The notes under the pieces are model-generated. The model was not told where the DNA came from. It saw nothing but the letters and a program-made list of their open reading frames with translations, and did no database searches. A program made the translations under genes and the position numbers. Shown piece after piece: positions 22,656-41,275 of a DNA stretch of 64,000 bases. The first letter of the stretch is position 1. Each line of letters begins with the position of its first letter. The stretch comes from Phycisphaeraceae bacterium. Lineage in GTDB: Bacteria; Planctomycetota; Phycisphaerae; Phycisphaerales; Phycisphaeraceae. The stretch lies in the NCBI GenBank assembly GCA_020849625.1, contig JADLFV010000097.1, forward strand, positions 1-64,000. The letters are read 5' to 3'.

Positions 22656-22767
22656 GGGGCGACTCCGTAAATTGTTATTTATGACTTTCCAATGTTCTCT
22701 TTTTACGATAATATACAGATCAGAATCGTTGTAAATTGAATAAAGTGATGTTTCGTTGCGGAAAGCG

Positions 22768-23583
22768 ATGACGGGCCTGCGATTGAAAATGAGTGCTTAC
22801 GGGCAGTTCGACGGCCGCGTCGCGGTGGGGCCGGTCTGCTGGGCATGGTTCGACCTGTTCTGGGTGCACAGCGGGCGGGTGAACCTGCGGGTGATGGGTG
22901 AGTCGCCGGTAACGCTACAGCGTGGGCAGGGGATGTTGATCTATCCGCACACGCCGTTCGAGGGCGAAGCGGAGTCGCGCGTGGTCCGGGCCTCGGTGCA
23001 GCACTTCGAGTTGACGGCGGGCGTGGCTGCGGCGCGACTGCCAGCGCCGTTGCGGCGACTGCGGGGCAAGAGTCGCGGCTGCGAGCAGCATACGCCGGGC
23101 GATATCGAGTGGTTCGAGGAAATGCTCGATCACGCGGTGCAACTGTCGCTGTTGCCGGTGAGTCCGCTGGTCGATGACCTGCGTGCGGCGCAACTGGTGT
23201 TGTTGCTGGGACACCTTGAGTTGCATCATCTGCCCGCGGCGCCGGCCGGCCCGCCGCAGAGTGAGCTGGGCCAACTGCTGGAGCAGATTCGTCTGCATCC
23301 GCAGCGGCCGTGGTCCCTGGCGGAGATGGCTGGCAGTTTGAACCTGTCGGTCAGCCACTTCCGCGCAATGTTTCGCCAACGGGTCGGCGTGTCACCGGGG
23401 CGCTACCGTCAGCAGATGCGACTGCGTGAGGCGGCCCGGCTGCTGCGGGACACGGATGAGCCGATCAAGAGCATTGCCGGCAAGCTCAGCTTCAGCGATC
23501 TGCCGCACTTTCATCGCCAGTTCAAGGCTGAGCACGGCCAGACGCCGCGGCGTTATCGGGCCCAGCGTTCGCCCCGAGCCTGA
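22768..23583 (+). CDS. AraC-family transcriptional regulator
   Basis: C-terminal double HTH (WSLAEMAGSLNLSVSHFRAMFRQRVGVSPGRYRQQMRLREAARLLRDTDEPIKSIAGKLSFSDLPHFHRQFKAEHGQTPRRYR). A TTG start at 22756 is also possible. Confidence 0.93.
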   Translation: MTGLRLKMSAYGQFDGRVAVGPVCWAWFDLFWVHSGRVNLRVMGESPVTLQRGQGMLIYPHTPFEGEAESRVVRASVQHFELTAGVAAARLPAPLRRLRGKSRGCEQHTPGDIEWFEEMLDHAVQLSLLPVSPLVDDLRAAQLVLLLGHLELHHLPAAPAGPPQSELGQLLEQIRLHPQRPWSLAEMAGSLNLSVSHFRAMFRQRVGVSPGRYRQQMRLREAARLLRDTDEPIKSIAGKLSFSDLPHFHRQFKAEHGQTPRRYRAQRSPRA

Positions 23584-23922: not shown

Positions 23923-25185
23923 ATGCAACGAAGATGGCAGCACCGTGGTGCGATCATCCTTTTGGTGATCGCGTGCATGATCGTGTCGGCAGCGGAGGCG
24001 CAAACCACGCTGTTCAACGGCGTCACCGTGCCGGGGGTGGTCATCACGCACTCGCCCAAATCCAGCGGCAAGTACATCGGTTCGCCTTCTATCGCCATTT
24101 TGCCTGATGGCTCGTATGTCGCCTCGCACGACTTCTTTGGGCCCAACTCCGGTGAAAACAGCCAGGGCGTCAGCGAAGTCTATCGCTCCACCGATCAGGG
24201 CCAGACCTGGTCGCTGGCCAGTCATCTCGTCGGCCAATACTGGTCCGGCCTGTTCGTGCACGACAACGATCTCTACATCTGCGGCACCAGCAAGAGCAAC
24301 GGCAACCTGGTCATTCGACGCTCCACCGACGGCGGCTTCACCTGGACCACGCCCGCCAGCAGCAGCACCGGCCTGCTCAAGACCGCCACCGGCACGCTCG
24401 GCTATCACACCTCATCCATGCAACTGGTCGAGGCTGACGGCCGCCTGTGGCGCGGCTTCGAGACACGCAACCCTTCCAACTCCAATGCCATCAACGTCGG
24501 CGTGATGAGCATTCCCCTGGGCGCCGATCTGCTCGATACCGCCAACTGGACTTTCAGCAACACTATTCTCCGCCAGACCAGTTGGTTGGCCGGCAACAGC
24601 TTCACCGCCTGGCGCGAAGGCGGCATGGTGGTCGATCGCAACGGCAACGTCGTCAACATGGTCCGCGTCGATCTGCCCACCGGCTACAGCCCTGAGTACG
24701 CCGCCATGGTCCGCGTGCAGAACGCCAGCACCATCACTTTTGATTCCGGGAGCGACCTGGTCCAGTTCCCCGGCGGAGCCAAGAAGTTCACCGTCCGCTA
24801 CAACGCCACCACTGACAAATACTGGACGGTCTCCAGCATCGTCAACAACGACAACTACGTCTCCAACCGCACGCCCGGCGCCATTCGCAACATTATGGCC
24901 CTGATGTCCTCGGACAATCTAGACAGTTGGACGGTCGAGCAGATTATCGTGCAGGACCTGTCGGACGTGGCCAAGATCGGCTTTCAGTACATGGACTGGG
25001 TGTTCGACGGCTCCGACATCGTCATCGCTTCGCGCACCGCTTATCCCGACGGGCTGGGCGGCGCCAACACCTATCACGACGCCAACTTCCTGACTTTCCA
25101 TCGCGTGGTGGGCGTGGTGCCCGAGCCGAGTGTAGCAATGCTTCTGGCGCCGACGCTATTAGCCCTGGTGTCGCGTCGTGGATGA
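23923..25185 (+). CDS. Array copy 1: secreted Asp-box (BNR/sialidase-fold) protein, PEP-CTERM
   Basis: Signal peptide; YRSTDQGQTW and RRSTDGGFTW Asp boxes; VVPEPSVAMLLAPTLLALVSRRG tail; RBS AGGAGA. Confidence 0.9.
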   Translation: MQRRWQHRGAIILLVIACMIVSAAEAQTTLFNGVTVPGVVITHSPKSSGKYIGSPSIAILPDGSYVASHDFFGPNSGENSQGVSEVYRSTDQGQTWSLASHLVGQYWSGLFVHDNDLYICGTSKSNGNLVIRRSTDGGFTWTTPASSSTGLLKTATGTLGYHTSSMQLVEADGRLWRGFETRNPSNSNAINVGVMSIPLGADLLDTANWTFSNTILRQTSWLAGNSFTAWREGGMVVDRNGNVVNMVRVDLPTGYSPEYAAMVRVQNASTITFDSGSDLVQFPGGAKKFTVRYNATTDKYWTVSSIVNNDNYVSNRTPGAIRNIMALMSSDNLDSWTVEQIIVQDLSDVAKIGFQYMDWVFDGSDIVIASRTAYPDGLGGANTYHDANFLTFHRVVGVVPEPSVAMLLAPTLLALVSRRG

Positions 25186-25220
25186 GACTGGGCAGTCGAA
25201 TGATTTGGAGATTGCAGAAC

Positions 25221-26450
25221 ATGAATTTTTCACGTTTCATCCTCAGCAGTCTGGTCAGTCTCGCCTTCGCGGTGGCCAGCTATGCGCAGACCACGCTGTT
25301 CAACGGCGTCGAGGTGCCGGGTGTGGTGATCGCCCATTCGCCGGCGTCCACCGCTCGTTACCTGGGTACGCCATCCATCGTCATCATGCCCAACGGCGAT
25401 TACGTGGCCAAATGCGACAAATGGGGCACGAGTCTCGTCTATCGCTCCACAGACCTGGGCAGCACATGGAGCCAGATCAGTTCCGTCGAAAACCATATGT
25501 GGTCCAATCTCTTCGTCCACAACGATGAGTTGTACCTATGCGGCACAAGCACGGGTTACGGCAACCTGATCATCCGCAAATCCACCGACGGCGGCGTGAC
25601 CTGGACCACGCCCAACAGCGCGGCAACCGGCCTGCTCCGCGCCGCGGGAACGTATGGCTATCACACATCCTCCATGCCCATGGCCATCGCCGACGGCCGC
25701 ATCTGGCGGGCCTATGAGGACGACGGCTCCGGTGGCGGGTGGCCTTACCACTTCCGCGCGTACCTGATGAGCGCACCGATCGACAGCGACCTGCTCAATG
25801 CAGCCAACTGGACCCACACCAATGCCCTGCCCAGCAACACCACCTGGCTGCCCGGCGATGGCTTTAACGGCTGGCTGGAGGGCAATGCCGTAGTCGATCG
25901 CGATGGCAACGTGGTGAACTTCCTGCGCGTGGACGTCGATCCCGGCGACGCGGAGAAGGCGGCCATCGTCCACGCCACGAGCACGACCAACATCACGTTC
26001 AACCCGGCCACCGATATCGTAGACATGCCCGGTGGGGCCAAGAAGTTCAACATCCGCTACCACGAAGACACCGACAAATACTGGGCGGTCGCCAGCATCG
26101 TCAACCAAGACAATTACTCGCCTACAACGTCGCCCAACTTGATCCGCAACACGGCGGCGGTGCTCAGCAGCAACGACCTGTATCACTGGGACGTGGAACG
26201 GATTGTGATTCAGGACCTGTCAGACGTGACCAAGATCGCCTTCGCGTATCTCGACTGGCAGTTCGACGGGGACGACATCATCGCAGTCTCGCGCACCAGT
26301 TATCCCGACGGCCTGGGCGGGGCCAACAGTTGGCACAACGCCAACTTCTTCACCTTCCATCGCTTCGAGGCGATTGTGCCCGAACCGGGAGCCGCCATGC
26401 TGCTGGCGCCCGCTGCCATGCTGGGATTGTTGCGACGCAAACGAAACTGA
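25221..26450 (+). CDS. Array copy 2: Asp-box (sialidase-fold) protein, PEP-CTERM
   Basis: MNFSRFILSSLVSLAFAVASYAQTTLFNG; YRSTDLGSTW, RKSTDGGVTW; VPEPGAAMLLAPAAMLGLLRRKRN. Confidence 0.9.
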   Translation: MNFSRFILSSLVSLAFAVASYAQTTLFNGVEVPGVVIAHSPASTARYLGTPSIVIMPNGDYVAKCDKWGTSLVYRSTDLGSTWSQISSVENHMWSNLFVHNDELYLCGTSTGYGNLIIRKSTDGGVTWTTPNSAATGLLRAAGTYGYHTSSMPMAIADGRIWRAYEDDGSGGGWPYHFRAYLMSAPIDSDLLNAANWTHTNALPSNTTWLPGDGFNGWLEGNAVVDRDGNVVNFLRVDVDPGDAEKAAIVHATSTTNITFNPATDIVDMPGGAKKFNIRYHEDTDKYWAVASIVNQDNYSPTTSPNLIRNTAAVLSSNDLYHWDVERIVIQDLSDVTKIAFAYLDWQFDGDDIIAVSRTSYPDGLGGANSWHNANFFTFHRFEAIVPEPGAAMLLAPAAMLGLLRRKRN

Positions 26451-26485: not shown

Positions 26486-27985
26486 ATGATCCGTTCACTA
26501 TGCCGACTGTTGACGGCTGCCCTGCCTGCTGTGGTGCTGTTCGGTCAACCCGCGTTATCGCAGGCGCAGACGACGTTGTTCAACGGCGTCACCGTGCCCG
26601 GCGTGGTCATCACGCACTCGCCCAAATCCAGCGGCAAATACATCGGTTCGCCTTCCATCGCCATCCTGCCTGACGGCTCGTATGTCGCCTCGCATGATTT
26701 CTTCGGGCCCAACGGCGGGCAGGACGGCCTCGGCTTGACGCAAGTGTTTCGTTCCACCGATCAGGGGCAGACCTGGTCTTTGGCCAGTTCCATTGTCGGC
26801 CAAACCTGGGCCGGCCTGTTCGTCCACCACGATGACCTGTACATCCTCGGCGCCAGCAAAGGCTATGGCAATCTCGTCATTCAGAAGTCCACCGATGGCG
26901 GCTACACCTGGACCACCCCCAGCGATGCGGCCAGCGGGCTGCTCCGCGCCGCGGGGACGTACGGCTATCACACCGCCACGGTGCCCGTGGTGATTCACAA
27001 CGGGCGCATCTGGCGGGCGTATGAAGACAACGGGTCTGGCGGCGGTTGGCCCTACCATTTTCGTGCCTACACGATGAGCGCACCGATTGACAGCGATCTG
27101 CTCGATGCTTCCAACTGGGCCCACACCAATTACCTGCCCACCAGCACCAGTTGGCTGCCCGACAGCGGATTCAACGGCTGGCTGGAGGGCAATGCCGTGG
27201 TCGATCGCGACGGCAACATGGTCAATGTGCTGCGCGTGGATGTCGATGGCGGCGACCCGGAGAAAGCTGCCATCGTCAGCGTCGCCAATCCTTACTACGC
27301 CAGCTTCGATCCGGTCACCAGCATCATCGACATGCCCGGAGGGGCCAAGAAGTTCACCATCCGCTACAGCCCCGCCGCTGACAAGTACCTGACCGTGGCC
27401 AGCATCGTCAACGAAGACAACTACTCCGCCACCCGCCTGCCCGGGCAGATCCGCAACATCATGGCGATGATGTCCTCGGACGATCTGACTTCGTGGACCG
27501 TCGAGCAGATCATCGTGCAGGACCTGTCCGACGTGACCAAGATCGGCTTCCAGTACATGGACTGGCAGTTTGACGGTTCCGACATCGTCATTGCCTCGCG
27601 CACCGCCTATCCCGACGGGCTGGGCGGCGCTAACAACTATCACGATGCCAACTTTCTGACCTTCCATCGCGTCAGCTACAGCGACCTGCTCACGCCCGGC
27701 GACGCCAACGCCGACGGCAAAGTCAACCTGGCTGATCTGCAGATCCTCGGCGACAACTGGCTGAGCGGTGGAGCCGACTGGGACCTGGCGGACTTCAACG
27801 GCGACGGCGTCGTGAACTTGGCCGACCTGCAGATCATCGGTGATAACTGGGGCTTCGGCACGACGCCGGATGTCAGCTTCGATCAGGCGATGCAACAAAG
27901 CGGGCTGACTCTCCCCGAGCCGGGCGCGTTGAGCCTGTTGGCGATGGCTGTTTCCGGGCTGATCCTACGCCGCAAACGGCATTGA
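26486..27985 (+). CDS. Array copy 3: Asp-box protein with dockerin-like repeats, PEP-CTERM
   Basis: FRSTDQGQTW, QKSTDGGYTW; GDANADGKVNLADLQILGDNW...DFNGDGVVNLADLQIIGDNW; LPEPGALSLLAMAVSGLILRRKRH. Confidence 0.9.
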   Translation: MIRSLCRLLTAALPAVVLFGQPALSQAQTTLFNGVTVPGVVITHSPKSSGKYIGSPSIAILPDGSYVASHDFFGPNGGQDGLGLTQVFRSTDQGQTWSLASSIVGQTWAGLFVHHDDLYILGASKGYGNLVIQKSTDGGYTWTTPSDAASGLLRAAGTYGYHTATVPVVIHNGRIWRAYEDNGSGGGWPYHFRAYTMSAPIDSDLLDASNWAHTNYLPTSTSWLPDSGFNGWLEGNAVVDRDGNMVNVLRVDVDGGDPEKAAIVSVANPYYASFDPVTSIIDMPGGAKKFTIRYSPAADKYLTVASIVNEDNYSATRLPGQIRNIMAMMSSDDLTSWTVEQIIVQDLSDVTKIGFQYMDWQFDGSDIVIASRTAYPDGLGGANNYHDANFLTFHRVSYSDLLTPGDANADGKVNLADLQILGDNWLSGGADWDLADFNGDGVVNLADLQIIGDNWGFGTTPDVSFDQAMQQSGLTLPEPGALSLLAMAVSGLILRRKRH

Positions 27986-28036: not shown

Positions 28037-29290
28037 ATGACCCGTTGGCACCTCGCATCTCTTGCAACTGCCGCGCTCACAGTTGCCCTGCTGAGCGCAC
28101 CGCAACACCTGCACGCCCAGACCACCATCTTCAACGGCGTCGAAGTGCCCGGCGTCGTCGTGGCGCACATCGCCGCGTCCAACAACTACAAATACAACTC
28201 GCCCACCATCACCATCATGCCCGACGGCTCGTACGTCGCTGCACACGACGTCACCGGCACCAACGCCCCCAATCCCCGGCCCACCTACGTCTATCGCTCC
28301 ACCGACCAGGGCGAAACCTGGTCCAAGATCAGCACCATCAGCGGATTGATCTGGGCCAATCTCTTCGTTTACCAGGACGACCTCTACATCCTGGGCGTCA
28401 ACAACGGCAGCCTGGTCATTCGCAAGTCCACCGACGGCGGCGTCAACTGGACCAACCCCACCACTGCCACCAACGGTCTGCTCGGTGTCGGCACCGCTGC
28501 CGCCCAGTATCACACCGCGCCCATGCAGGTGGTTGAGTACGACGGCCGACTGTGGCGCGGCATCGAAACACGGCCGACCAGCAACGCCAACGCCATCAGC
28601 GCCGGCGTCATGAGCATCCCACTGGGCGCCGACCTGCTCAACGCTTCCAACTGGACGTTCACCAACCGCATTCTCAGCCAGTCCAACTGGCTTGCAGGCG
28701 ATGCCTTCAGCTCCTGGCGCGAGGGCGGCGTGGTGATCGATCCCGACGGCAACCTGGTCAACATGATCCGTGTCGATCTGACCACAGGCTACATGCCTGA
28801 GAAGGCTGCCATCATGCGCGTGCAGGACCAGAACACCATCACCTTTGACTCGGCCAACGACATTGTGGACCTGCCCGGCGGATCCAAGATGTTCGTCGTC
28901 CGTTACAGCGAAAAAACCGACAGCTACTGGACCATCGCCAGCATCGTGGACAGCGAGAATTACCTGTCCTTCCTGCCGCCCGGCTCGATCCGCAACAAGC
29001 TGGCCCTGCTGGAATCCAATGACCTGCGCAACTGGAACGTCGATCGCATCATCATCAAGGACCTGTCCGACGTCTTCTACATCGGGTTCCAGTACGTGGA
29101 CTGGCAGTTCGACGGCGACGACATCATCGCCCTCTGCCGCACCGCGTATCCCGACGGCCTGGGCGGCGCGTTGAACTATCACGACGCTAACTTCATCACC
29201 TTCCACCGCCTCGAAGGCGTGGTGCCCGAGCCGGCCGCGCTGATCCTACTGGCACCGGCGGCGCTGGCGATGCTGAAGCGTCGTCGCTGA
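28037..29290 (+). CDS. Array copy 4: Asp-box (sialidase-fold) protein, PEP-CTERM
   Basis: YRSTDQGETW, RKSTDGGVNW; VVPEPAALILLAPAALAMLKRRR. Confidence 0.9.
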   Translation: MTRWHLASLATAALTVALLSAPQHLHAQTTIFNGVEVPGVVVAHIAASNNYKYNSPTITIMPDGSYVAAHDVTGTNAPNPRPTYVYRSTDQGETWSKISTISGLIWANLFVYQDDLYILGVNNGSLVIRKSTDGGVNWTNPTTATNGLLGVGTAAAQYHTAPMQVVEYDGRLWRGIETRPTSNANAISAGVMSIPLGADLLNASNWTFTNRILSQSNWLAGDAFSSWREGGVVIDPDGNLVNMIRVDLTTGYMPEKAAIMRVQDQNTITFDSANDIVDLPGGSKMFVVRYSEKTDSYWTIASIVDSENYLSFLPPGSIRNKLALLESNDLRNWNVDRIIIKDLSDVFYIGFQYVDWQFDGDDIIALCRTAYPDGLGGALNYHDANFITFHRLEGVVPEPAALILLAPAALAMLKRRR

Positions 29291-29318: not shown

Positions 29319-32225
29319 ATGAACCTGTCACGCATTATCCTCAGCACATGGATCAGCCTCTGCTTCGTCACCGCAGGTCAAGGGCAGACCACGCTGCTCA
29401 ACGGCTTCGAGGTGCCGGGGGCGATCGTCAATCATCTGCCCAAATCAACGGGGCTTTATCTGGGTTCGCCGTCGATCGTCGTCATGCCGGACGGCTCGTA
29501 CGTCGTCTCCCACGATCTGTTCGGTCCCAATTCGACGCAGCCCACCGTCGGGCAGAGCTCGGTCTTTCGCTCAACCGATGGCGGGCAGACGTGGACGCAC
29601 CAGTCCGATGTCAGCGGCGCGTTCTGGTCCATGTTGTTTGAATACGAAGGTGATCTGTACTTCACGGGCCCCTATGCAGGGCCGGGCAACTGGGTGATTC
29701 GCAAGTCCACGGACTACGGCCAGACCTGGACCACGCCGACGAATTCGACCAATGGTCTGCTGGTCACAGGAAGTTTCGGCGCTTCGCCCTCGCGCATCGA
29801 AATTTTCGGCGGGCGCATCTGGGCCCCAGTCAATGCCGGGCCGCGCGCCATTTCAGCGCCGGTGGGGTCCGACCTGCTCAACGCTGCCAACTGGACCCTC
29901 AGCGAAGCTGTGCCCGAAGAGTTTGAGTGGTTCAACGAGAACATCGTCTGGACCGAGGCCCAGGTGGTCGCCTCGCCGCAGACCGGGCTGGTGATGATGC
30001 CCAAGATCAGGGACCACGCTGTCACCACGCTCCTGCGGGCCAACCCGGCGACTGGCCAACTCACGTTCGACGACCAGAATGACTTTGTCGATCTGCCCGG
30101 CGCGGAGAAAAAATTCGGCGCGACGTATGATCCGGTTTCGCAGAAGTTCTATGTCCTGAGCAACGCGGTGCTGCCGGAAGAGGCAAGCTTGGGTTTGCCG
30201 AATACCATCCGGACCACCGCGGCCATCATCACCTCCAAGGATCTGTACCACTGGGACGTGGAGAAGCTGTTTCTCTACACCCCCAATGTGACCACTGAGG
30301 CTTTCCAGTACCTCAACTTCGCCATCGACAGCGACGACCTGGCGGTGATCTCGCGCACCGCGTATGCCGACGGCCTGGGCGGGGCGCACAATTATCACGA
30401 CTCCAACATGATCACCTTCCACCGCGTGGAAGACTTCCGCAACGTCACGAGCAAGCAGGTGCTGGTAGCCGATACGCTGCACAATCAGGTACTACGTTAC
30501 GAGGTAACGCAGACCGACTTCTGGGCGCCGCTGGGCAAGTTTGAGCTTGGATCAACCTTCGCCGGAGCGGCACTCACCAAACCTCTGGGGCTGGCCCAGG
30601 ACGCGGCAGGCAATGTCTATGTCGGTGAGCAGGATGACGGCGGACGCATTCTGCGCTTCGATGCCATGGGCAACTTCCTCGACGTGATAGCCACGGAAGG
30701 GATCGACTTCACCGGCAGGCCCGAAGCGCTGACCATGGGGCCGGACGGCAACCTTTACATGTCCGTTGCCTTCGGGACCACCGGCTCGGACAAGATTTAC
30801 AAGATTGATTTGATTGATGATTCAATCTCACTGTTCGTGGACACCAATTTCGTAGGCGGCACGCTGGACAACCCGCGCGGCATCGCTTTCGGATCGGACG
30901 GCAATCTGTACGTCGCTGATCGGCAAAACGGCGTGGTGCGCAAGTTCAGCGGGGTGAATGGTTCCTTCCTGGGCAATCTTTTCACCGCTGTCCAGCCGGA
31001 GGCGCTGACCTGGGATCAGTTGCAACAGAAGTTCCTAGCCAGCACCCGCAACGGCAGCGACACCGACCTGCACCTGCTGGCTCTCAATGGTTCGAGCAGC
31101 AAGCTGTACGATCCGGCTGACATCGGCCCGACACTGGGCATCATCGACATCGACGGCGATATCTACTGGACCGACTACAACAACGATCGCATTTACAAAC
31201 TCAAGGGCCTGAACCAGAAGGTCAGCAGCGTTTCCAGCAGGCTTGACGGCCCCGGCCAACTCCTGCACCTGGCCTTGGCCCCGGCCGGCGAGCGGGCCTG
31301 GCTGATGAGCGGATCGGCTGACTGGAGCGAACTGACCAACTGGTTCTACTGGGGACGACCCGACACCAACTATGAAGTAGCTTTCTTCGGCACCTCCGCC
31401 AATGCCGCCAGCACCATCACCCAGAACAAGGCGCTGACACTCAAAGGTCTGCGCTTCCGCAACACCAACGCCTACACGATTGCCGGCACGGGCAGCCTCA
31501 CTATTGAAGCTGACATCGGCCACGGCGTCATCGACGTGCAACTGGGCATGCACGAAATCCAGAACAACCTCCTGCTCAACAGAGACACCGACGCCACCCT
31601 CGGCTTCGGCACCCTCACCCTCAGCGGACAGGTTGATCTTAACGGCCATACGCTCTACATCACAGGCCCCGGCACCATCAACGTCACCGGCACGCTGCTG
31701 ATGAACGACGGCGCACTGGGCTTCACCCTGGCCGGCTCCACCATTCCTTCGTTGAACGTCGCGGGTCATTTGAGCCTCGATGGCTCACTGGTCCTGCTGT
31801 TGGCGCCCGGCTTCACGCCGCAGTATGGCGACACCTTCAACATCCTGGGCGCGGCTATCCTGACCGGTGAGTTCGACGCCATCGACGGCGTCATCGTCGA
31901 TGAAGACACGGCATTGGCGGTCAGGCACTACGTCAACTCGGTGACGGTCACCATCGCCCTGCCCGGCGACGCCAACCTAGACGGCGTGATCAATCTCTCC
32001 GACCTGCAGATCCTCGGCGATCACTGGCAGAGCAGCACCGCCAACTGGGTCGATGCCGACTTCAACGGCGATCGCATGGTGAACCTGGCCGACCTGCAAG
32101 TGCTGGGCGATCACTGGAATGCAAGTGTCGGTGATTTTGCAGCGCTGACCGCTGACATTCCTGAGCCGACTGTGGCGATGGTGTTTGGGCCGATGGCGGG
32201 CGTGTTCCTGATGCGCCGCCGGTGA
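29319..32225 (+). CDS. Array copy 5: Asp-box propeller + NHL-like propeller + beta-strand domain + dockerin-like repeats + PEP-CTERM
   Basis: FRSTDGGQTW, RKSTDYGQTW; VLVADTLHNQVLRYE...GRILRFDAMGNF (NHL-like); GDANLDGVINLSDLQILGDHW; IPEPTVAMVFGPMAGVFLMRRR. Confidence 0.88.
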   Translation: MNLSRIILSTWISLCFVTAGQGQTTLLNGFEVPGAIVNHLPKSTGLYLGSPSIVVMPDGSYVVSHDLFGPNSTQPTVGQSSVFRSTDGGQTWTHQSDVSGAFWSMLFEYEGDLYFTGPYAGPGNWVIRKSTDYGQTWTTPTNSTNGLLVTGSFGASPSRIEIFGGRIWAPVNAGPRAISAPVGSDLLNAANWTLSEAVPEEFEWFNENIVWTEAQVVASPQTGLVMMPKIRDHAVTTLLRANPATGQLTFDDQNDFVDLPGAEKKFGATYDPVSQKFYVLSNAVLPEEASLGLPNTIRTTAAIITSKDLYHWDVEKLFLYTPNVTTEAFQYLNFAIDSDDLAVISRTAYADGLGGAHNYHDSNMITFHRVEDFRNVTSKQVLVADTLHNQVLRYEVTQTDFWAPLGKFELGSTFAGAALTKPLGLAQDAAGNVYVGEQDDGGRILRFDAMGNFLDVIATEGIDFTGRPEALTMGPDGNLYMSVAFGTTGSDKIYKIDLIDDSISLFVDTNFVGGTLDNPRGIAFGSDGNLYVADRQNGVVRKFSGVNGSFLGNLFTAVQPEALTWDQLQQKFLASTRNGSDTDLHLLALNGSSSKLYDPADIGPTLGIIDIDGDIYWTDYNNDRIYKLKGLNQKVSSVSSRLDGPGQLLHLALAPAGERAWLMSGSADWSELTNWFYWGRPDTNYEVAFFGTSANAASTITQNKALTLKGLRFRNTNAYTIAGTGSLTIEADIGHGVIDVQLGMHEIQNNLLLNRDTDATLGFGTLTLSGQVDLNGHTLYITGPGTINVTGTLLMNDGALGFTLAGSTIPSLNVAGHLSLDGSLVLLLAPGFTPQYGDTFNILGAAILTGEFDAIDGVIVDEDTALAVRHYVNSVTVTIALPGDANLDGVINLSDLQILGDHWQSSTANWVDADFNGDRMVNLADLQVLGDHWNASVGDFAALTADIPEPTVAMVFGPMAGVFLMRRR

Positions 32226-32256
32226 ATGCGTTGTATGGAAAGATGATTTGCTAAAT

Positions 32257-33501
32257 ATGAATGCGTCACGCCTCATTCTCAGCACTTTGATCAGCGTCAC
32301 CTTCGCAGTCGCAGGTGAAGGCCAGACCACGCTGTTCAACGGCGTCGAGGTTCCCGGCGTCGTCATCGATCACGTGCCGCAGTCCACCGGCCGCCATTAC
32401 GCTTCGCCCACTATCGCCATTCTGCCCGACTGCTCCTATGTCGCGGCCCACGATATTTCCGGTAAAAAAGGCTCACCCGACACCGTCGTCTTTCGCTCCA
32501 CCGATCGCGGCTTGACCTGGACTCAGATCAGCACCATCCATAATCAGTTCTGGTCCAACCTCTTCGTCCATCGCGGTGATCTTTACATCATCGGGCCCAG
32601 CAACGGGCACGGTGATCTGTACATCCGCCGCTCAACCGATGGCGGCCAAACATGGACTACGCCCACCAGCGCGGAGGACGGCATCATCCGTACCAAATCT
32701 GGCAAAAAAGGCTTTCACACCGGCCCGATGCCCATGCTCATCGCCCACGGCCGCATCTGGCGAGCTGTCGAAGACAATGCCGCGCCGGGCAAATGGCCCG
32801 AGATGTATCGGGCGGGTATGATCAGCGCCCCGGTTGACAGCGATCTGCTCCAGGCTGCAAGCTGGACGCAAAGCAACATGCTGCCGCCCAATCCCGACTG
32901 GCTTCCTTACAAGGGTTTTCTGGGCTGGCTGGAAGGCAATGCGGTGCTCGATCGCAGCGATCAGGTCGTCAACGTGCTGCGCGTGGACGTCGGCTTTGGC
33001 AAGCCCGAGGTGGCAGCCATCGCACGCATGCAGTCGCCCGAACGCATCAGCTTCGATCCGCAAAATGACATCATCCCCATGCCCGGCGGGGCCAAGAAAT
33101 TCAACATCCGCTACCACGAAGGCACCGACGCCTACTGGACGTTGGCCAACATCGTCAACGAGCAAAACTACACGCCTGTTCTGCCGCCGCGATGGATTCG
33201 CAACATGCTGGCTGTGCTGCGCAGCGATAATCTGAAGCACTGGACGGTCGAGAAGATCGTGCTCAAGGACCTGTCCGACGTGCGCCACATCGGCTTTCAT
33301 TACGTGGACTGGCAGTTCGACGGCCGCGACATGATCGGCGTGGCCCGCACCGCGTTCCCTGATGGTGAAGGCGGCGCGTCCGACTATCACAACGCCAACT
33401 TCTTCAATTTCTATCGCTTCGAAAACGTCATCCCCGAACCGTCCGCCACGGCCCTGATCCAGGAAAACCGCAACCAATTGACTGGAGAGCAAAACCCATG
33501 A
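32257..33501 (+). CDS. Array copy 6: Asp-box protein with truncated PEP-CTERM (no TM/Arg cluster)
   Basis: FRSTDRGLTW, RRSTDGGQTW; ends VIPEPSATALIQENRNQLTGEQNP; stop overlaps next ATG (ATGA). Confidence 0.87.
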   Translation: MNASRLILSTLISVTFAVAGEGQTTLFNGVEVPGVVIDHVPQSTGRHYASPTIAILPDCSYVAAHDISGKKGSPDTVVFRSTDRGLTWTQISTIHNQFWSNLFVHRGDLYIIGPSNGHGDLYIRRSTDGGQTWTTPTSAEDGIIRTKSGKKGFHTGPMPMLIAHGRIWRAVEDNAAPGKWPEMYRAGMISAPVDSDLLQAASWTQSNMLPPNPDWLPYKGFLGWLEGNAVLDRSDQVVNVLRVDVGFGKPEVAAIARMQSPERISFDPQNDIIPMPGGAKKFNIRYHEGTDAYWTLANIVNEQNYTPVLPPRWIRNMLAVLRSDNLKHWTVEKIVLKDLSDVRHIGFHYVDWQFDGRDMIGVARTAFPDGEGGASDYHNANFFNFYRFENVIPEPSATALIQENRNQLTGEQNP

Positions 33502-34715
33502 ATCCTGCACAGTTCCTTCACATCGCGCTGCTTGGTCTGACGATTCCCTTCACTGTCGAAGGTCAGACCACGCTGTTCAATGGCGTGACGGTGCCCGGCG
33601 TGGTCATCGCCCACGAGCCGCCGACCATCAAATGCTTTATTGGTTCACCCTCCATCGCTATCCTGCCCAACGGCGACTACGTCGCCTCGCACGACCTTTT
33701 CGGGCGCGACAGCGGCTCCGAGACCGACGACAACATCAGCCGGGTCTATCGCTCCACGGATCGCGGTCAGACCTGGTCCCTTGCCGCCACGCTCCGTGGT
33801 CAGCACTGGTCCAACCTCTTCGTTCTCGACGGCGCGCTCTACATCCTCGGCCCGTCCAAGCACCACGGCGACATGGTCATCCGTCGCTCCACGGATGGCG
33901 GCATCACCTGGACTGAGCCGACTGATTCCAAGTCCGGCCGGTTGCGATCCACCGGCGATGCGTTCGGTTTCCACACCTCCTCCGTGCCCGTGGTCATACA
34001 CGCCGGCCGCATCTGGCGTGCCTATGAAAAACACGGCGGCGGCGAAAAATGGCCGCACGGCTACCAGGCGGTGGTCATGAGCGCTGCGATCGACAGCGAT
34101 CTGCTCAACGCTGACAGTTGGACACACACCAACACGCTTTCGCACAACAGCGACTGGCTGCCTGACAGCGGGTTCGGCGGCTGGCTCGAAGGCAACGTCG
34201 TGGTCGATCCTGACGGCAACATCGTCAACGTCCTCCGCGTCCAGGTCAGTGAAGGTCAACCTGAGTGGGTCGCCATCGCCCGCGTCCACGGAACAGAGAG
34301 CCTGACCTTCGACCCGGTCAACGACTTGATCCCCTTCAACGGCGGGTCCAAGAAATTCAACATCCGCTTCCACGAGGGCTCGGGCAAATACTGGTCGCTG
34401 GTCAATCTCATCAACGAGCAGAACCATAATCCTGAAATGATGCCCGCCCGCATTCGCAACATCGTCGCCCTGGTGTCGTCGAGCGACCTGCGGCAGTGGG
34501 CTGTGGATCGCATCGTGATTCAGGACCTGTCCGACGTGAAGAAGATCGGCTTTCAATACCTCGACTGGCTGCCCGACGGCGCCGACATCATCGCTGTCAG
34601 CCGCACTGCTTACCCCGACGGCAGCGGCGAAGCTGACAACTATCACAACGCCAACTTCCTCACCTTCCACCGCATCCCCGGCGTATTCCAAAGCGAGCAA
34701 ACACCATCACCATGA
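33498..34715 (+). CDS. Array copy 7: Asp-box protein without PEP-CTERM
   Basis: YRSTDRGQTW, RRSTDGGITW; ends FHRIPGVFQSEQTPSP; ATGA overlaps at both ends. Confidence 0.87.
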   Translation: MNPAQFLHIALLGLTIPFTVEGQTTLFNGVTVPGVVIAHEPPTIKCFIGSPSIAILPNGDYVASHDLFGRDSGSETDDNISRVYRSTDRGQTWSLAATLRGQHWSNLFVLDGALYILGPSKHHGDMVIRRSTDGGITWTEPTDSKSGRLRSTGDAFGFHTSSVPVVIHAGRIWRAYEKHGGGEKWPHGYQAVVMSAAIDSDLLNADSWTHTNTLSHNSDWLPDSGFGGWLEGNVVVDPDGNIVNVLRVQVSEGQPEWVAIARVHGTESLTFDPVNDLIPFNGGSKKFNIRFHEGSGKYWSLVNLINEQNHNPEMMPARIRNIVALVSSSDLRQWAVDRIVIQDLSDVKKIGFQYLDWLPDGADIIAVSRTAYPDGSGEADNYHNANFLTFHRIPGVFQSEQTPSP

Positions 34716-36052
34716 TCCGGCGCGCTCCCACGCTTGTGGCGGTTGTCGGGCTGCTTTTCGCCGCCGTCGATCAATCCATCCTCGCCCAGACCACGCTGTT
34801 CAATGGCGTGGAAGTGCCGGGCGTCGTGATCGCACATTCCCCGGCCTCCACCGGGCATTACCTGGCGTCGCCTTCCATCGTTATCATGCCCAACGGTGAT
34901 TATGTCGCCTCGCACAACGTCTCCGGCACGGGCAATCCATACACCCGCGTCTATCGCTCCACGGACCGCGGCCAGAGCTGGAACCAGATCAGCACCATCA
35001 CATTTCAGACCTGGGCCAATCTGTTCCTTCACGACCACGACCTTTATATCCTGGGCACCAGCAAGAGTCTGGGCAACCTGGTCATCCGCCGCTCCACGGA
35101 CGGCGGGGTGACCTGGACAACGCCCACCAGCGCGGCCACGGGTTTGTTGAAGACACTGACGAGCAGCTATGCCTATCACACCGCACCGGTGCCGGTGGTG
35201 GTGGCCGACGGCCGCATCTGGCGCGCGTATGAAGACAATGGCGGCAGCGGCGAATGGGCCTACTACCATCGCATCGCCGTGATGAGCGCCCCGGTGGACA
35301 GCGATCTTCTCAATGCCGCCAACTGGACGCACACCAACCTGCTGACCAGCAACACCGCCTGGCTGCCGAGCAACGGTTTCCAGGGCTGGCTGGAAGGCAA
35401 TGCCGTGGTGGATCGTGAGGGGAAGGTCGTCAACGTGCTGCGGGTGGACGTCGGGCGGGGCAAGCCCGAAGTCGCTGCCATCGCCCGCGTGCAGGACACT
35501 TCCACCCTGACCTTCGATGCCGCCCACGACATCGTCCCCATGCCCGGCGGCGCCAAGAAGTTCACCATCCGCTACCACGAAGGCAGCGACGCCTATTGGA
35601 CGCTGGCCAGCATCGTTAACGATGACAATTACATCGCCAGGGATTACCCGCGCTGGATCCGCAACACGCTGGCCCTGTTGCGCAGTGACGACCTGAGGAA
35701 CTGGACGGTCGAGCGAATCGTGCTCCAGGATTTGACCGACGTGGACCACATCGGGTTCCACTATGTCGATTGGCAATTCGACGGCAACGACATCGTGGCT
35801 GTGTCACGCACCGCCTATCCCGACGGTTTGGGTGGGGCTCACAATTACCATGACGCCAACTTCTTCACCTTCCACCGCGTGGTGGGGGTGGTTCCCGAGC
35901 CGGGGGTCGCCGCCTGGCTTGTGATTTTTTCGCTCCTTGGAATGATTCGACGCAACCGGGAGTCCTGGCGGTCGTATGGGCCCGGGGGGCGTTGTGTCTG
36001 TCAGCCTGAGCCGTCATCCGCTCTCTCCCACCACAGTGAGATCAAGACATGA
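34712..36052 (+). CDS. Array copy 8: Asp-box protein with PEP-CTERM followed by a ~30 aa tail
   Basis: YRSTDRGQSW, RRSTDGGVTW; VVPEPGVAAWLVIFSLLGMIRRNRE then SWRSYGPGGRCVCQPEPSSALSHHSEIKT. Confidence 0.87.
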   Translation: MIRRAPTLVAVVGLLFAAVDQSILAQTTLFNGVEVPGVVIAHSPASTGHYLASPSIVIMPNGDYVASHNVSGTGNPYTRVYRSTDRGQSWNQISTITFQTWANLFLHDHDLYILGTSKSLGNLVIRRSTDGGVTWTTPTSAATGLLKTLTSSYAYHTAPVPVVVADGRIWRAYEDNGGSGEWAYYHRIAVMSAPVDSDLLNAANWTHTNLLTSNTAWLPSNGFQGWLEGNAVVDREGKVVNVLRVDVGRGKPEVAAIARVQDTSTLTFDAAHDIVPMPGGAKKFTIRYHEGSDAYWTLASIVNDDNYIARDYPRWIRNTLALLRSDDLRNWTVERIVLQDLTDVDHIGFHYVDWQFDGNDIVAVSRTAYPDGLGGAHNYHDANFFTFHRVVGVVPEPGVAAWLVIFSLLGMIRRNRESWRSYGPGGRCVCQPEPSSALSHHSEIKT

Positions 36053-39036
36053 AGCCGCGAAATTCGTTCGGTTTGCACGCTGTTGTACTATGCTGGGTCT
36101 TCGCATGGATTGCGGGCCTGTCCCAGGCCCAGATCACCGAATTCAACGGCGTCGAGGTGCCGGGGGTGGTCATCGCCCACATCGCCGCCTCCAACGATTA
36201 CAAATACAACTCGCCCTCCATCGTCATCATGCCCAACGGCGACTACGTCGCCGCTCACGACGTCACCGGCAACAATGCGCCGACGCCCAACCCCACCTAC
36301 GTTTATCGCTCCACCGATCAGGGCCTGACCTGGACCAAGGTCAGCACCGTCAGCAACCTGATCTGGGCCAACCTCTATGTGCATAACGGCGACCTGTACC
36401 TGATGGGTCGTAACGGGTCCGGCTTTTACATCCGCAAGTCCACCGATGCCGGCTCTACCTGGACCAACCCCACCTCCAGCACCACGGGCATGATCTCAAA
36501 CATTCCTGGCAGCACTTTCCATACAGCGCCCGTGGCGATGGTCGAATACAACGGTCGCCTGTGGCGCAGCATCGAGACGCGCGCCAGTGGTGTCAGCGGA
36601 TCGAGTGCCGGCGTGATGAGCGCTCCGATCGGCTCCGACCTTCTCAATGCCGCCAACTGGACATTCAGCAATCGCATCCTCAACCAGGAAAGTTGGCTCC
36701 CCGACAACCATTTCGAAGACTGGATCGAAGGCAACGTGGTCATCGATCGCAACGGTCAACTGGTCAACATCATGCGCGTGGGTGTTCCGCGCGGCGATGA
36801 TGAAGTGGCCGCCATCATGCGCGTGCAGAACCCAACGACCATCACTTTCGATTCCGGGGGTGACATCATTGACTTCAACGGCGGGGCCAAGAAGTTCACC
36901 ATCCGCTACGACCCGGTCAGCGACCGCTACTGGTCCCTGGCCAATATCATCACGCCTTACAACACCGATGTCACCATCCTGCCCAGCTCGCACCGTGACA
37001 TCCTCGCCCTGGTGCAGTCGCGCGACATGCGCAACTGGGACGTCGAGCGAATCGTGGTGCAGGACCTTTCGGATCAGGACAACATCGGTTTTCAGTACGT
37101 GGACTGGCAGTTCGATGGCGACGACCTGATCGCTGCCTCGCGCACCGCCTATCCCGACGGCTTGGGCGGGGCCATCCGCTTCCACGATGCCAACTTCTTC
37201 ACCTTCCATCGCATCGAAAACTACGCCACCACCCGCCCCACCCAAGCCCTGGTCGCGGACACCAACAACAACCAGGTCATGCGCTACGAGTTGACCGAGA
37301 CCAACCTGTGGATGCCCGTGGGCAAGTTCCAGTTGGGCAACACCTTCGCCGGGGCCGCCCTCATCAAGCCCATGGGCCTGGCCAAGAATGACGACGGCGA
37401 CGTGTTCATCGGCGAGCAGACCGACGGCGGACGCATCCTGCGCTTCGATTCGGCCGGCAACTTCCTCAACGTCGTGGCCAAAGAAGGTGTGAACTTCACC
37501 GGCCAGCCCGAGGGCCTGACTATGGGGCCCGACGGCATGCTCTACATGTCCGTCGCCTTCGGCACCAATCCTGCTGACAAGATCTATCGCATCGATCCGG
37601 CCAGCGGCGCCACCACACTCTTCATCGACACCACCTTCACCGGCGGCACGCTGGAAAACCCCCGCGCCATCGCCTTCGGCGACGACGGGAACCTTTACGT
37701 GGCCGACCGCGAAGGCGACGTTTTCCGCCGCTTCGACGGCACCACCGGCGCGTTCCTGGGCAACCTCTACTCCGGCAATTCGCCCGAGGGTCTGACCTGG
37801 GATCAGTTCCAGAACAAGCTCATCGCCACCTACCGCGATGACGGAGCCGCCAACATCGTCGAACTGGGCACCAGCGGCGGCGCCAACACGGTGTACAACC
37901 TCTCCAACATCGGCCGGGCCCTTGGCATCGTCGTCATCGACGGCCAGACCTACTGGTCCGACTGGGACAACAACAAAATCTACAAGCTCAAAGACACCAA
38001 CCAGATCGCCACCAGCGTCAGCGGACTCAACCGCCCCGGCCATCTGCTGCAGGTCGATCCCATGCCTATCGGAGAACGCTCCTGGACCAACACCAGCGCC
38101 AGCAACTGGCGCGACTGGGACAACTGGACCTACTGGAGCCGGCCCGACACCAGCGACGAGATCGCGGTCTTCGGCAGTGCCGCCGGCGTCACCACCTATG
38201 CCTACATCAACGCCGGCGAAAACTTCACCGTCAAGGGCCTGCGTTTCCGTAACAGCCAGCGCTACATCATCGACGGCGACGGCGCCCTGACCCTGGAAGC
38301 CTACTCCGGCCGCTGCTCCATCGACGTGCTCGATGGCAGCCAGTGGATCCGCGTCAACACCACGCTCAACGACGCCACCGACGTCACCGTCAACGATGCG
38401 GCCGACGAACTGAGCTTCCGCGATACGGTCGATCTCAACGGCAATGAACTGGTCAAGCGCGGGGCCGGCAAGCTGACCTTCAACGCGGGACTGGTCATGC
38501 ACGGCGGCAAGCTGGTGACCGACGGCCTGAGCCCCATCACCTTCAACACCGCCAGCACCGGCCTGCACACGCTCGACGGCGGCATCGAATTCCGCCCCGA
38601 TGAAAACACGCCCCTGGAATTCGGCGAAAGCTTCGACCTGATCGACGGCCAGCAGTACTTCGGCGGCCAGTTCTTCAACGCCCTCGTGCTGCCCACGCTC
38701 GACCCGGCCCTGAAATGGGCCGGCAACAACTTCTTTATCGACGGCATCATCACCATCGTCGCCTCCGTGGCCGCTGACGCCAACCTCGACGGCGTGGTCA
38801 ACCTCAGCGATCTGCAGATTCTTGGCGACAACTGGCAATCCGCCTCCGCCGACTGGACCACCGGCGACTTCACCGGCGATGGCATCGTCAACCTGGCCGA
38901 CCTTCAGGTCCTCGGCGATCACTGGGGCGACATCGCTACGGACTTGGCTGAACTGGCTGTGACCATTCCTGAACCGGCCGGCGCGTTACTGATCAGTGTG
39001 GGTGTTGTGTGGGTGCTGTTCCGTCGGCGCGACTGA
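36049..39036 (+). CDS. Array copy 9: Asp-box propeller + NHL-like propeller + beta-strand domain + dockerin-like repeats + PEP-CTERM
   Basis: YRSTDQGLTW, RKSTDAGSTW; ALVADTNNNQVMRYE...; DANLDGVVNLSDLQILGDNW; IPEPAGALLISVGVVWVLFRRRD. Confidence 0.88.
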   Translation: MKPRNSFGLHAVVLCWVFAWIAGLSQAQITEFNGVEVPGVVIAHIAASNDYKYNSPSIVIMPNGDYVAAHDVTGNNAPTPNPTYVYRSTDQGLTWTKVSTVSNLIWANLYVHNGDLYLMGRNGSGFYIRKSTDAGSTWTNPTSSTTGMISNIPGSTFHTAPVAMVEYNGRLWRSIETRASGVSGSSAGVMSAPIGSDLLNAANWTFSNRILNQESWLPDNHFEDWIEGNVVIDRNGQLVNIMRVGVPRGDDEVAAIMRVQNPTTITFDSGGDIIDFNGGAKKFTIRYDPVSDRYWSLANIITPYNTDVTILPSSHRDILALVQSRDMRNWDVERIVVQDLSDQDNIGFQYVDWQFDGDDLIAASRTAYPDGLGGAIRFHDANFFTFHRIENYATTRPTQALVADTNNNQVMRYELTETNLWMPVGKFQLGNTFAGAALIKPMGLAKNDDGDVFIGEQTDGGRILRFDSAGNFLNVVAKEGVNFTGQPEGLTMGPDGMLYMSVAFGTNPADKIYRIDPASGATTLFIDTTFTGGTLENPRAIAFGDDGNLYVADREGDVFRRFDGTTGAFLGNLYSGNSPEGLTWDQFQNKLIATYRDDGAANIVELGTSGGANTVYNLSNIGRALGIVVIDGQTYWSDWDNNKIYKLKDTNQIATSVSGLNRPGHLLQVDPMPIGERSWTNTSASNWRDWDNWTYWSRPDTSDEIAVFGSAAGVTTYAYINAGENFTVKGLRFRNSQRYIIDGDGALTLEAYSGRCSIDVLDGSQWIRVNTTLNDATDVTVNDAADELSFRDTVDLNGNELVKRGAGKLTFNAGLVMHGGKLVTDGLSPITFNTASTGLHTLDGGIEFRPDENTPLEFGESFDLIDGQQYFGGQFFNALVLPTLDPALKWAGNNFFIDGIITIVASVAADANLDGVVNLSDLQILGDNWQSASADWTTGDFTGDGIVNLADLQVLGDHWGDIATDLAELAVTIPEPAGALLISVGVVWVLFRRRD

Positions 39037-39061
39037 ATGTCGCTTTGACAGGTGCTCGAAC

Positions 39062-41275
39062 ATGCGCTATTCCGTTTCTTGTGTGGGCAGTCTGTGCCTG
39101 TGTCTGTGCCTGCTGACGCTGTCCTTTCCCGCAGATGCTCAGGATTTCTCCGTCGTGCCCGGCGTGGTGATCAACTACGAGGAATCGCCCGCCTACTACT
39201 TCGACGGCAACGGCACCCGCGTGTTCACCGAGCCGCGCGTGTTCCTGGCCACACCCTCCATCACCATCATGCCCAACGGCGACTACATCGTCTCCCATGA
39301 TTACTTCAGCTCCGGCACCAACGAAGACACCGTCAAAGTCTTCCGTTCCACCGACAAAGGCCAGACCTGGACCTATCAATCCACGGTTATGGACGCCTTC
39401 TGGTGCACCATCTTCGAACACAACGGCGACCTCTATCTCATGGGCGATCGCCAGGGCGGCAGCAACGGCGACATCCTCATCCGCAAATCCACCGACTACG
39501 GCGTCACCTGGACCAATCCCGTCGATGCCAACAGCGGATTTCTGCGCGACGGCGACTACGGCGGCACCGCCAACACACCGACCATCTATGACGGCCGCAT
39601 CTGGATTGCGGAGCACAACCGCCTGATGTCTGCACCGGTCGATTCCAACCTGCTGCTAGCCAGTTCATGGACGCTGTCCAACACGCTCACGGCCGGCAGC
39701 GGCGAGGCCCAGGTCGTGGCGTCACCGCAGACCGGCGTGGTCATGCTGCCCGTGGTCGGCAATCAGGATTACACCTACCTCATCCGCGCCACGGCCAACC
39801 CCGCGGTCATCAGCAGCCCCCCCAGCAGCGAACACATCTCTCTGCCCGGGGCCGGCAAGAAGTTCGCCGCACAATATGACCCGGTTTCCGAGAAGTTCTA
39901 CGTGCTCGACAATCCCGTGCTGCCAGTCCACGAGGGCATCACCGGCTCAGGGCTCACCCGCACCACCGCGGCCATGTTCTCTTCCAAAGACCTGGTCAAC
40001 TGGGACATGGAGAAAATTTTCCTGTTCACTCCTAACGTCGATGGCGAGTTCGGCGAAGGATTCCAGTACTTCAACTTCGCCATCGATGGCGACGACATGG
40101 CGGTCGCTTCCCGCACCGCCATTGCTATCCCCGGCGAAAACCCACCGCCCCGCGGCCACGACTCCAACCTCATCACCTTCCACGTCATCGATCACTTCCG
40201 CACTGCCTCGCCCGATCAATACCTGATGGTGGATACTGCCGGCAACCAGGTGCTGCGCTTCGAGACGACGCAACACGAAGATGCGCCATTGGGCAAATTC
40301 ACTCTGGGCACCACTTTCGCAGGCTCGGCGCTGAACCAACCTGACGGCGTAGGCCAGGCTGCCAACGGCGATGTGTACATCCGCGAACAAGGCGGGCGCA
40401 TCCTGCGCTTCGATACCCTGGGCAACTTCATCGAAACGGTCGTCTCATCGCCCGTGGCGTTCAGTTCGCAACTGGCCATCCAGCAGGCAGCGTCCGGCGA
40501 ACGAACCTGGCAGGCTTCCAGCACGGGCGACTGGTTCGATGCGGACAACTGGTACTACTGGTGCCGGCCCGACACAAACGATGAAGTCGCCAACTTCGGC
40601 TCCGCCGTCGCCGCGGACACCGCCATCAGCATGAACCAGTCTTTCACCATGAAAGGTCTGCGCTTCCGCAGCGCCAGGAAATACAGCATCGTCGGCACCG
40701 GCAACATCACCCTCACCGCCTCCAATGGCCACGGCCTCCTGGATGTGCAGCAGGGCCAACACACGGTCATCGTCCCCGTCCTGCTCAACAGCGACGTGGA
40801 CGCCTTCATTGCTGATTCATCTGTGCTGCAATTCAAGAAGAAGGTTGACCTCGATGGACGCAAGATGTACATCCGCGGGCAGGGCCGGCTGTGGGTTTAC
40901 GATCAGTTCATCATGCACGGTGGCACGCTCGTCCTCGACGGGCTGAAGCCTTTCAACGTGGGTAACACCTCCAGTCTCGTCCTTGATGGGGATCTCCAGT
41001 TCGCGCCAGACGCCAGCCTGTCGCTTGCTTTGGGAGAAAGTTTCGAACTGCTCAATGGTGTCGCTTACGTTGCTGATCCGTTCGATCACCTCATACTGCC
41101 GTCACTGCCCGACGGGCTGAGTTGGGACACCTCCACCCTGTACGTCAATGGCATGGTGACAATCATCCCAGAACCGGCCGCGATGCTGCTCGTGCTGCCG
41201 ACGACCGCACTGGTGCTGAGCCGCCGCCGCTCGGGTAACACGTTTTTTGATCACATCAAGCACTCGCATTTTTAA
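39062..41275 (+). CDS. Array copy 10: divergent Asp-box protein with contracted NHL region, beta-strand domain, PEP-CTERM
   Basis: FRSTDKGQTW, RKSTDYGVTW; lacks QTTLFNG leader; IIPEPAAMLLVLPTTALVLSRRRSG. Confidence 0.87.
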   Translation: MRYSVSCVGSLCLCLCLLTLSFPADAQDFSVVPGVVINYEESPAYYFDGNGTRVFTEPRVFLATPSITIMPNGDYIVSHDYFSSGTNEDTVKVFRSTDKGQTWTYQSTVMDAFWCTIFEHNGDLYLMGDRQGGSNGDILIRKSTDYGVTWTNPVDANSGFLRDGDYGGTANTPTIYDGRIWIAEHNRLMSAPVDSNLLLASSWTLSNTLTAGSGEAQVVASPQTGVVMLPVVGNQDYTYLIRATANPAVISSPPSSEHISLPGAGKKFAAQYDPVSEKFYVLDNPVLPVHEGITGSGLTRTTAAMFSSKDLVNWDMEKIFLFTPNVDGEFGEGFQYFNFAIDGDDMAVASRTAIAIPGENPPPRGHDSNLITFHVIDHFRTASPDQYLMVDTAGNQVLRFETTQHEDAPLGKFTLGTTFAGSALNQPDGVGQAANGDVYIREQGGRILRFDTLGNFIETVVSSPVAFSSQLAIQQAASGERTWQASSTGDWFDADNWYYWCRPDTNDEVANFGSAVAADTAISMNQSFTMKGLRFRSARKYSIVGTGNITLTASNGHGLLDVQQGQHTVIVPVLLNSDVDAFIADSSVLQFKKKVDLDGRKMYIRGQGRLWVYDQFIMHGGTLVLDGLKPFNVGNTSSLVLDGDLQFAPDASLSLALGESFELLNGVAYVADPFDHLILPSLPDGLSWDTSTLYVNGMVTIIPEPAAMLLVLPTTALVLSRRRSGNTFFDHIKHSHF

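Follow-up and report, generated by a model that had tools for sequence, protein, structure and literature searches.

Mosaic propeller genes in a Phycisphaeraceae bacterium and the probable exchange of a two-blade segment among paralogs

An array of propeller genes in a Phycisphaeraceae bacterium contains one member, copy 3, that resembles the first gene of the array at both ends and the second in its middle. The question is whether copy 3 is a patchwork of these two neighbours, as had been proposed in a sequence-only reading, or whether another copy has changed. The window is the whole stretch of DNA analysed, 64,000 nt of contig JADLFV010000097.1. Copy 3 had been placed correctly within it: the open reading frame runs from 26486 to 27985, starts with ATG and encodes 499 aa. 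Where three copies had been counted, ten were found between 23920 and 41275, all ten of them open reading frames; copies 1 to 5 lie head to tail and are followed by five more at 32248-41275. The array is laid out as follows.

22756-23583, + strand: AraC-family regulator, directly upstream of the array.
23923-25185, + strand: copy 1; flanks like copy 3, middle like copy 4; probable recipient of the strongest exchange.
24412-24777, + strand: middle tract of copy 1, equivalent to residues 164-286 of copy 3; resembles copies 4 and 9 and has indels in common with copy 4.
25218-26450, + strand: copy 2; contains the tract (25614-26036) that best matches the middle of copy 3.
26486-27985, + strand: copy 3; predicted hydrophobic helix, propeller read as six-bladed (residues ~29-400), dockerin type I (404-451), PEP-CTERM-like tail.
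28037-29290, + strand: copy 4; contains a tract (28517-28882) that looks like a donor for the middle of copy 1.
29319-32225, + strand: copy 5; propeller, NHL/ScyF-like second propeller, dockerin.
32248-33501, + strand: copy 6.
33498-34715, + strand: copy 7; overlaps copy 6 by 4 nt.
34712-36052, + strand: copy 8; overlaps copy 7 by 4 nt.
36049-39036, + strand: copy 9; overlaps copy 8 by 4 nt; NHL-like extension, dockerin; middle of the copy 1/4 type.
38996-41275, + strand: copy 10.

The 4-nt overlaps at each junction of copies 6 to 9 (33498-36052) suggest translational coupling within one operon, and from its position the AraC-family protein is a possible regulator of the array. Neither promoter-like nor terminator-like sites occurred in the array above chance. 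In copies 5 (29319-32225) and 9 (36049-39036) the common propeller is followed by a second, NHL/ScyF-like propeller and a dockerin.

A search of the window's own draft assembly (154 contigs, 96% complete), in which copies were extracted region by region, found about 30 copies, many of them off the array on other contigs. Over its full length copy 3 is nearest to two of these, C144_6576 (69% aa identity) and C64_33902 (68%); copies 2 and 1 follow with 64% and 62%. As the nearest relatives of copy 3 are on other contigs, any test for mosaicism must take in all the paralogs.

Local similarity was read in 30-codon windows. Copy 3 is 0.72-0.93 identical to copy 1 in nucleotides over residues ~31-120 and close to copies 4, 1 and 2 over residues ~106-150. 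Over residues 136-285 its identity to copy 2, the closest copy for most of that range, is 0.69-0.87, against 0.42-0.70 for copy 1. Over residues 286-390 it is again similar to copy 1 (0.78-0.90), with the C64 copies equal or better over much of the range. Copy 1 behaves in a complementary way, its two ends being nearest to copy 3 and its residues 166-270 to copy 4. The proposed order, copy 1, copy 2, then copy 1 again, is thus borne out for residues 30-135, ~146-286 and 287-400 of copy 3, which correspond to three blocks.

26570-26890, + strand: block A of copy 3, residues 29-135, blades 1-2; like copy 1; the AU test rejects copy 2 with copy 3.
26921-27343, + strand: block B of copy 3, residues ~146-286, blades 3-4; like copy 2 and typical of the family; the AU test rejects copy 1 with copy 3.
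27344-27685, + strand: block C of copy 3, residues 287-400, blades 5-6; in the clade of the C64 copies, C144_6576 and copy 1.

A walk test with copy 3 as the child of copies 1 and 2 gave a maximum drop of 86 for the tract 146-286, and copy 1 with copies 3 and 4 as parents gave a drop of 69 for 165-286. With sites shuffled the null for copy 3 was 16.2 ± 4.4 (p≤5e-5, the resolution limit); null means overall were ~15-16 with sites shuffled and 17-21 with codons shuffled (~21 for copy 3). As a recombination-free control, 40 alignments were simulated on a single ML tree and all triplets were scored. The largest simulated drop was 44 and the largest z 8.3, whereas copy 3 showed a drop of 86 and z 11.7, and observed triplets reached z 10.7-15. 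In the real data 27 triplets exceeded z 7, against a simulated mean of 0.1. The mosaic pattern along copy 3 is real.

These results were confirmed by block trees. ML trees for residues 29-135, 160-286 and 287-400 reject one another in both DNA and protein (AU p≤6e-4). Grouping copy 1 with copy 3 is rejected in the middle block (AU 1.6e-28 for DNA, 2.5e-5 for protein), is not rejected in block A and is only marginally rejected for the DNA of block C (0.046), a block in which the group also takes in the C64 copies. Copy 2 with copy 3 shows the reverse, being rejected in both flanks (AU 0.012 for DNA and 0.008 for protein in block A) and not in the middle; copy 1 with copy 4 is likewise rejected in blocks A and C and not in B. 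Indels follow the same blocks. Copies 1 and 4 both lack two residues in the 176-202 loop and both carry a one-residue insertion (TGY) near residue 256; copies 2 and 3 have neither change. The full-length 70-90 loop is present in copies 1 and 3 and missing from copy 2. Indels converge less readily than substitutions. A check of trees along the gene had been suggested together with the claim of recombination; the topology does change from block to block, every cross-block tree is rejected by the AU test, and the claim is strongly supported by these conflicts.

Could convergence or constraint at the amino-acid level mimic the block likeness on a single gene tree? Strictly synonymous sites (~55) gave no significant walk signal (p=0.74 and 0.48), and most differences in pS are also non-significant, as this explanation would have it, although saturation made the strictly synonymous tests uninformative. 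Against it, simulations on a single tree fall short of the observed walk values, the DNA trees conflict with AU p down to 1e-28 and below, third codon positions do carry the mosaic pattern (walk p=0.001 and 0.002), and the two C64 copies, which are twins, differ in a sharply local tract. Such mimicry is very unlikely. An assembly chimera of different copies, conceivable in a draft of 154 contigs, is more improbable still: identity within the tracts is only ~75-93%, too low for pieces of present-day copies, the longest exact matches are 35 nt (copies 1 and 3), 26 nt (2 and 3) and 18 nt (1 and 4), and no array copy is broken.

Which copy changed was judged from the block trees, among them trees with outgroups (FastTree). 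Blocks A and C both place copies 1 and 3 with C144_6576, and block C adds the two C64 copies to this group. In the middle block the large clade still holds copy 3, C144_6576 and the two C64 copies; only copy 1 has left it, for the clade of copies 4 and 9, C58 and C108_25688. The form of the middle in copy 3, WRA-ED...W...RA, is the consensus of paralogs and outgroups, remote paralogs included, and this middle is nearer than that of copy 1 to nearly every paralog, including the remote C115_3731, C108_24485 and C97_95702. The middle of copy 1 is probably the rarer, derived form that copy 4 also has. Because copy 3 carries the form of the family and outgroups and copy 1 the rarer, derived one, copy 1 is probably the recipient of the clearest event; the roles of recipient and donor are inferred.

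The original proposal, that copy 3 is a mosaic of copies 1 and 2, thus holds as regards the patchwork but probably not as regards its making, since the middle of copy 3 is ancestral, it is copy 1 that switches clade, and over its C-terminal third copy 3 is no further from the C64 copies than from copy 1. That copy 3 is itself the recombinant, with a copy 2 middle pasted into a copy 1 background, is still favoured by several results: the largest single walk drop is that of copy 3 with copies 1 and 2, DNA UFBoot support for copy 2 with copy 3 in block B is 90, and with copy 1 left out the triplet of copy 3, C64_33902 and copy 2 keeps z 8.3 over residues 101-278. However, leaving out copy 1 cuts the triplets with z>7 from 29 to 7, the ancestral type of the copy 3 middle points the other way, and over most of residues 271-360 the C64 copies are nearer to copy 3 than copy 1 is. 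In addition, the AU test does not reject a block B group of copy 3 and the C64 copies (0.09 for DNA, 0.24 for protein), which weakens the tie of copy 3 to copy 2 in particular. Recombination into copy 3 as the main event is consequently rather unlikely; a weaker additional signal that ties the middle of copy 2 to that of copy 3 does remain without copy 1.

The best explanation, to which we give a probability of roughly 0.78, is that paralogs of the ~30-copy expansion, probably secreted, PEP-CTERM-tailed propellers of the sialidase (BNR/Asp-box) superfamily, exchanged internal segments by ectopic recombination. Donor-like sequences for the exchanged tracts are present in the same genome. Exchange would have occurred repeatedly, by homologous recombination at short conserved stretches, in some cases inside the array and in others elsewhere in the genome. 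The main exchange would have brought a blade 3-4 segment like that of copies 4 and 9 into copy 1, leaving copy 3 with its older middle, and a second, weaker exchange or common ancestry may link the middles of copies 3 and 2. The mechanism would be general homologous recombination with no dedicated system, and its effect would be to recombine whole blades, with loops such as 176-192, among secreted carbohydrate-active or carbohydrate-binding proteins.

The breakpoints were mapped on a structural model, as had been suggested. The AlphaFold model, built with the ten array copies, has a mean pLDDT of 72.6; ten-residue means are mostly 72-96 over residues 31-400 and the tail is of low confidence. 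It predicts a sialidase-superfamily propeller that we read as six-bladed, the blades being assigned by our reading of the DSSP string. The strands of blades 3-4 span residues ~168-282, with linkers at ~154-168 and 282-290, so that in the model the main exchanged tracts (~164-286) have both ends in inter-blade linkers, a coincidence behind which stand few independent events. The downstream end adjoins the most conserved DNA of the gene, at residues 286-292 (94-99th percentile), where copies have exact runs of 9-17 nt in common; homologous recombination at short stretches of identity would be expected to use such sites. As for the suggested diversification of a central face, the exchanged unit is two whole blades and not surface loops alone.

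The age of the exchanges was estimated from pS. The median over pairs of the family is 0.54. Between copies 1 and 3, pS rises from 0.37 in the flanks to 0.53 in the middle (p=0.027); copies 1/4 and 3/2 show contrasts in the expected direction that are not significant, because synonymous sites are near saturation. For the same reason the exchanges among array copies are old, and the suggestion that recombination actively diversifies these genes finds no support in them, pS in shared blocks being 0.3-0.5 against the family median. Nor did recombination between neighbours stand out: the fraction with z>3 was 0.11 for adjacent pairs (9 pairs) and 0.21 for pairs on another contig (411 pairs), in a draft of unordered contigs.

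The youngest exchange seen is off the array. At C64 33902-36900 (L031 5903-8869) lie recent twin copies with a sharply bounded divergent tract. Their pS is 0.16, yet 30 of 150 nt differ within residues 284-333 and 63 of 948 outside them (p=1.6e-6); over residues 284-303 C64_33902 is 92% identical to copy 3. For these twins the contrast in divergence between the tract and the rest is clear.

This younger exchange, the large number of copies and the recurrence of tract ends near residues 160 and 286 might be taken as signs of a dedicated diversification system, through cassette conversion or programmed recombination, now acting on the array. The age of the array exchanges and the lack of any effect of adjacency argue against it, and each array copy is an open gene of full length, not a silent partial cassette; we give such a system very little credence.

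The domains of copy 3 were analysed with profiles. The hydrophobic helix predicted at its N-terminus is a probable signal peptide. Dockerin_1 scores 29.2 bits (cut-off 22.9), and the tail just misses TIGR02595 (15.9 against 16.0) and falls below PF07589 (14.9 against 20.7). Exosortase (EpsH) is encoded at C42 and C89, with a partial match at C114. Dockerin type I matches number 116 genome-wide, and no cohesin (PF00963), the partner of dockerin in cellulosomes, was matched in the 96% complete genome. The same combination of dockerin and PEP-CTERM-like tail occurs on many other proteins of the genome.

Foldseek matched the propeller to GH93 exo-arabinanases and GH33 sialidases (PDB 3a71, 8um0, 8t1y) with E 3e-12 to 5e-11, the best fold matches having 14-15% identity and TM 0.47-0.67, and the family profile retrieves sialidases in the PDB. 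Generic propeller matches were all that a viral fold library returned. Like these two enzyme families, the copies combine a predicted six-bladed propeller with Asp boxes, which in copy 3 are at residues 90-97 and 135-142. Pfam BNR_2 (PF13088) scores 17.9-22.3 bits in copies 1-4, below its gathering cut-off of 31.4, and has no match in copy 5. Four residues are invariant in the family (E234, Y357, R323 and R372). Unlike GH33 sialidases, the family lacks the arginine of the RIP motif, the sialidase site bearing the first arginine of the triad; the consensus at that position is GSPSI. Given the low identity, the BNR_2 scores under the cut-off and the missing RIP arginine, assignment as a GH33 sialidase was set aside.

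Other copies adjoin sulfatases, sodium:solute symporters and a sugar kinase, and these neighbours hint that the loci may serve in the use of sulfated polysaccharides. The sulfatases beside other propeller copies are at L034 8241-9743 and L042 11523-13055. More distant relatives of the propeller family, outside the trees, lie at L034 10081-12564 and L041 12203-13300.

Of 300 other genomes of the order, just 5 have a relative at E≤1e-20, with 1-2 copies each, so the expansion is lineage-specific as far as sampled. No genome of a close strain was found, the next relatives being ~46-51% identical with 1-2 copies; relatives in the named collection are mostly planctomycete MAGs. A few remote copies of this genome fall among the outgroup sequences in rooted trees.

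The trans-sialidase superfamily is a mosaic paralogous family shaped by ectopic recombination, and it shares with the present family the sialidase-superfamily fold predicted here. The RHS family of Trypanosoma cruzi is described as another (PMC7563717). Both, like the present family, are large lineage-specific sets with exchanged internal segments; here, in contrast, the host is a bacterium, the exchanged unit matches two propeller blades, and nothing points to an antigenic role or to activity at present. PEP-CTERM proteins are also described as having undergone lineage-specific expansions, with an expanding C-terminal module (PMC1569441). The present case resembles these as a paralogous expansion in one lineage with exosortase present, and differs in that it is the propeller that is mosaic. 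In the literature searched, the coverage of which was incomplete, exchange of blades was not reported for planctomycete PEP-CTERM propellers. The process is known; the family and the blade-pair unit are new.

A wider reading, speculative and on balance doubtful, is that blade pairs 1-2, 3-4 and 5-6 form a repertoire swapped among the ~30 secreted propellers genome-wide, that tract ends in linkers are kept by selection for folding, and that new glycan specificities arise by recombination. If whole-blade swaps are real, they would show how sialidase-superfamily propellers acquire new abilities in binding or catalysis; they would also make it misleading to describe this family by one gene tree or to name orthologs in it. 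With ~30 related genes and natural mosaics among them, this genome also offers material for testing the role of blades 3-4 in specificity.
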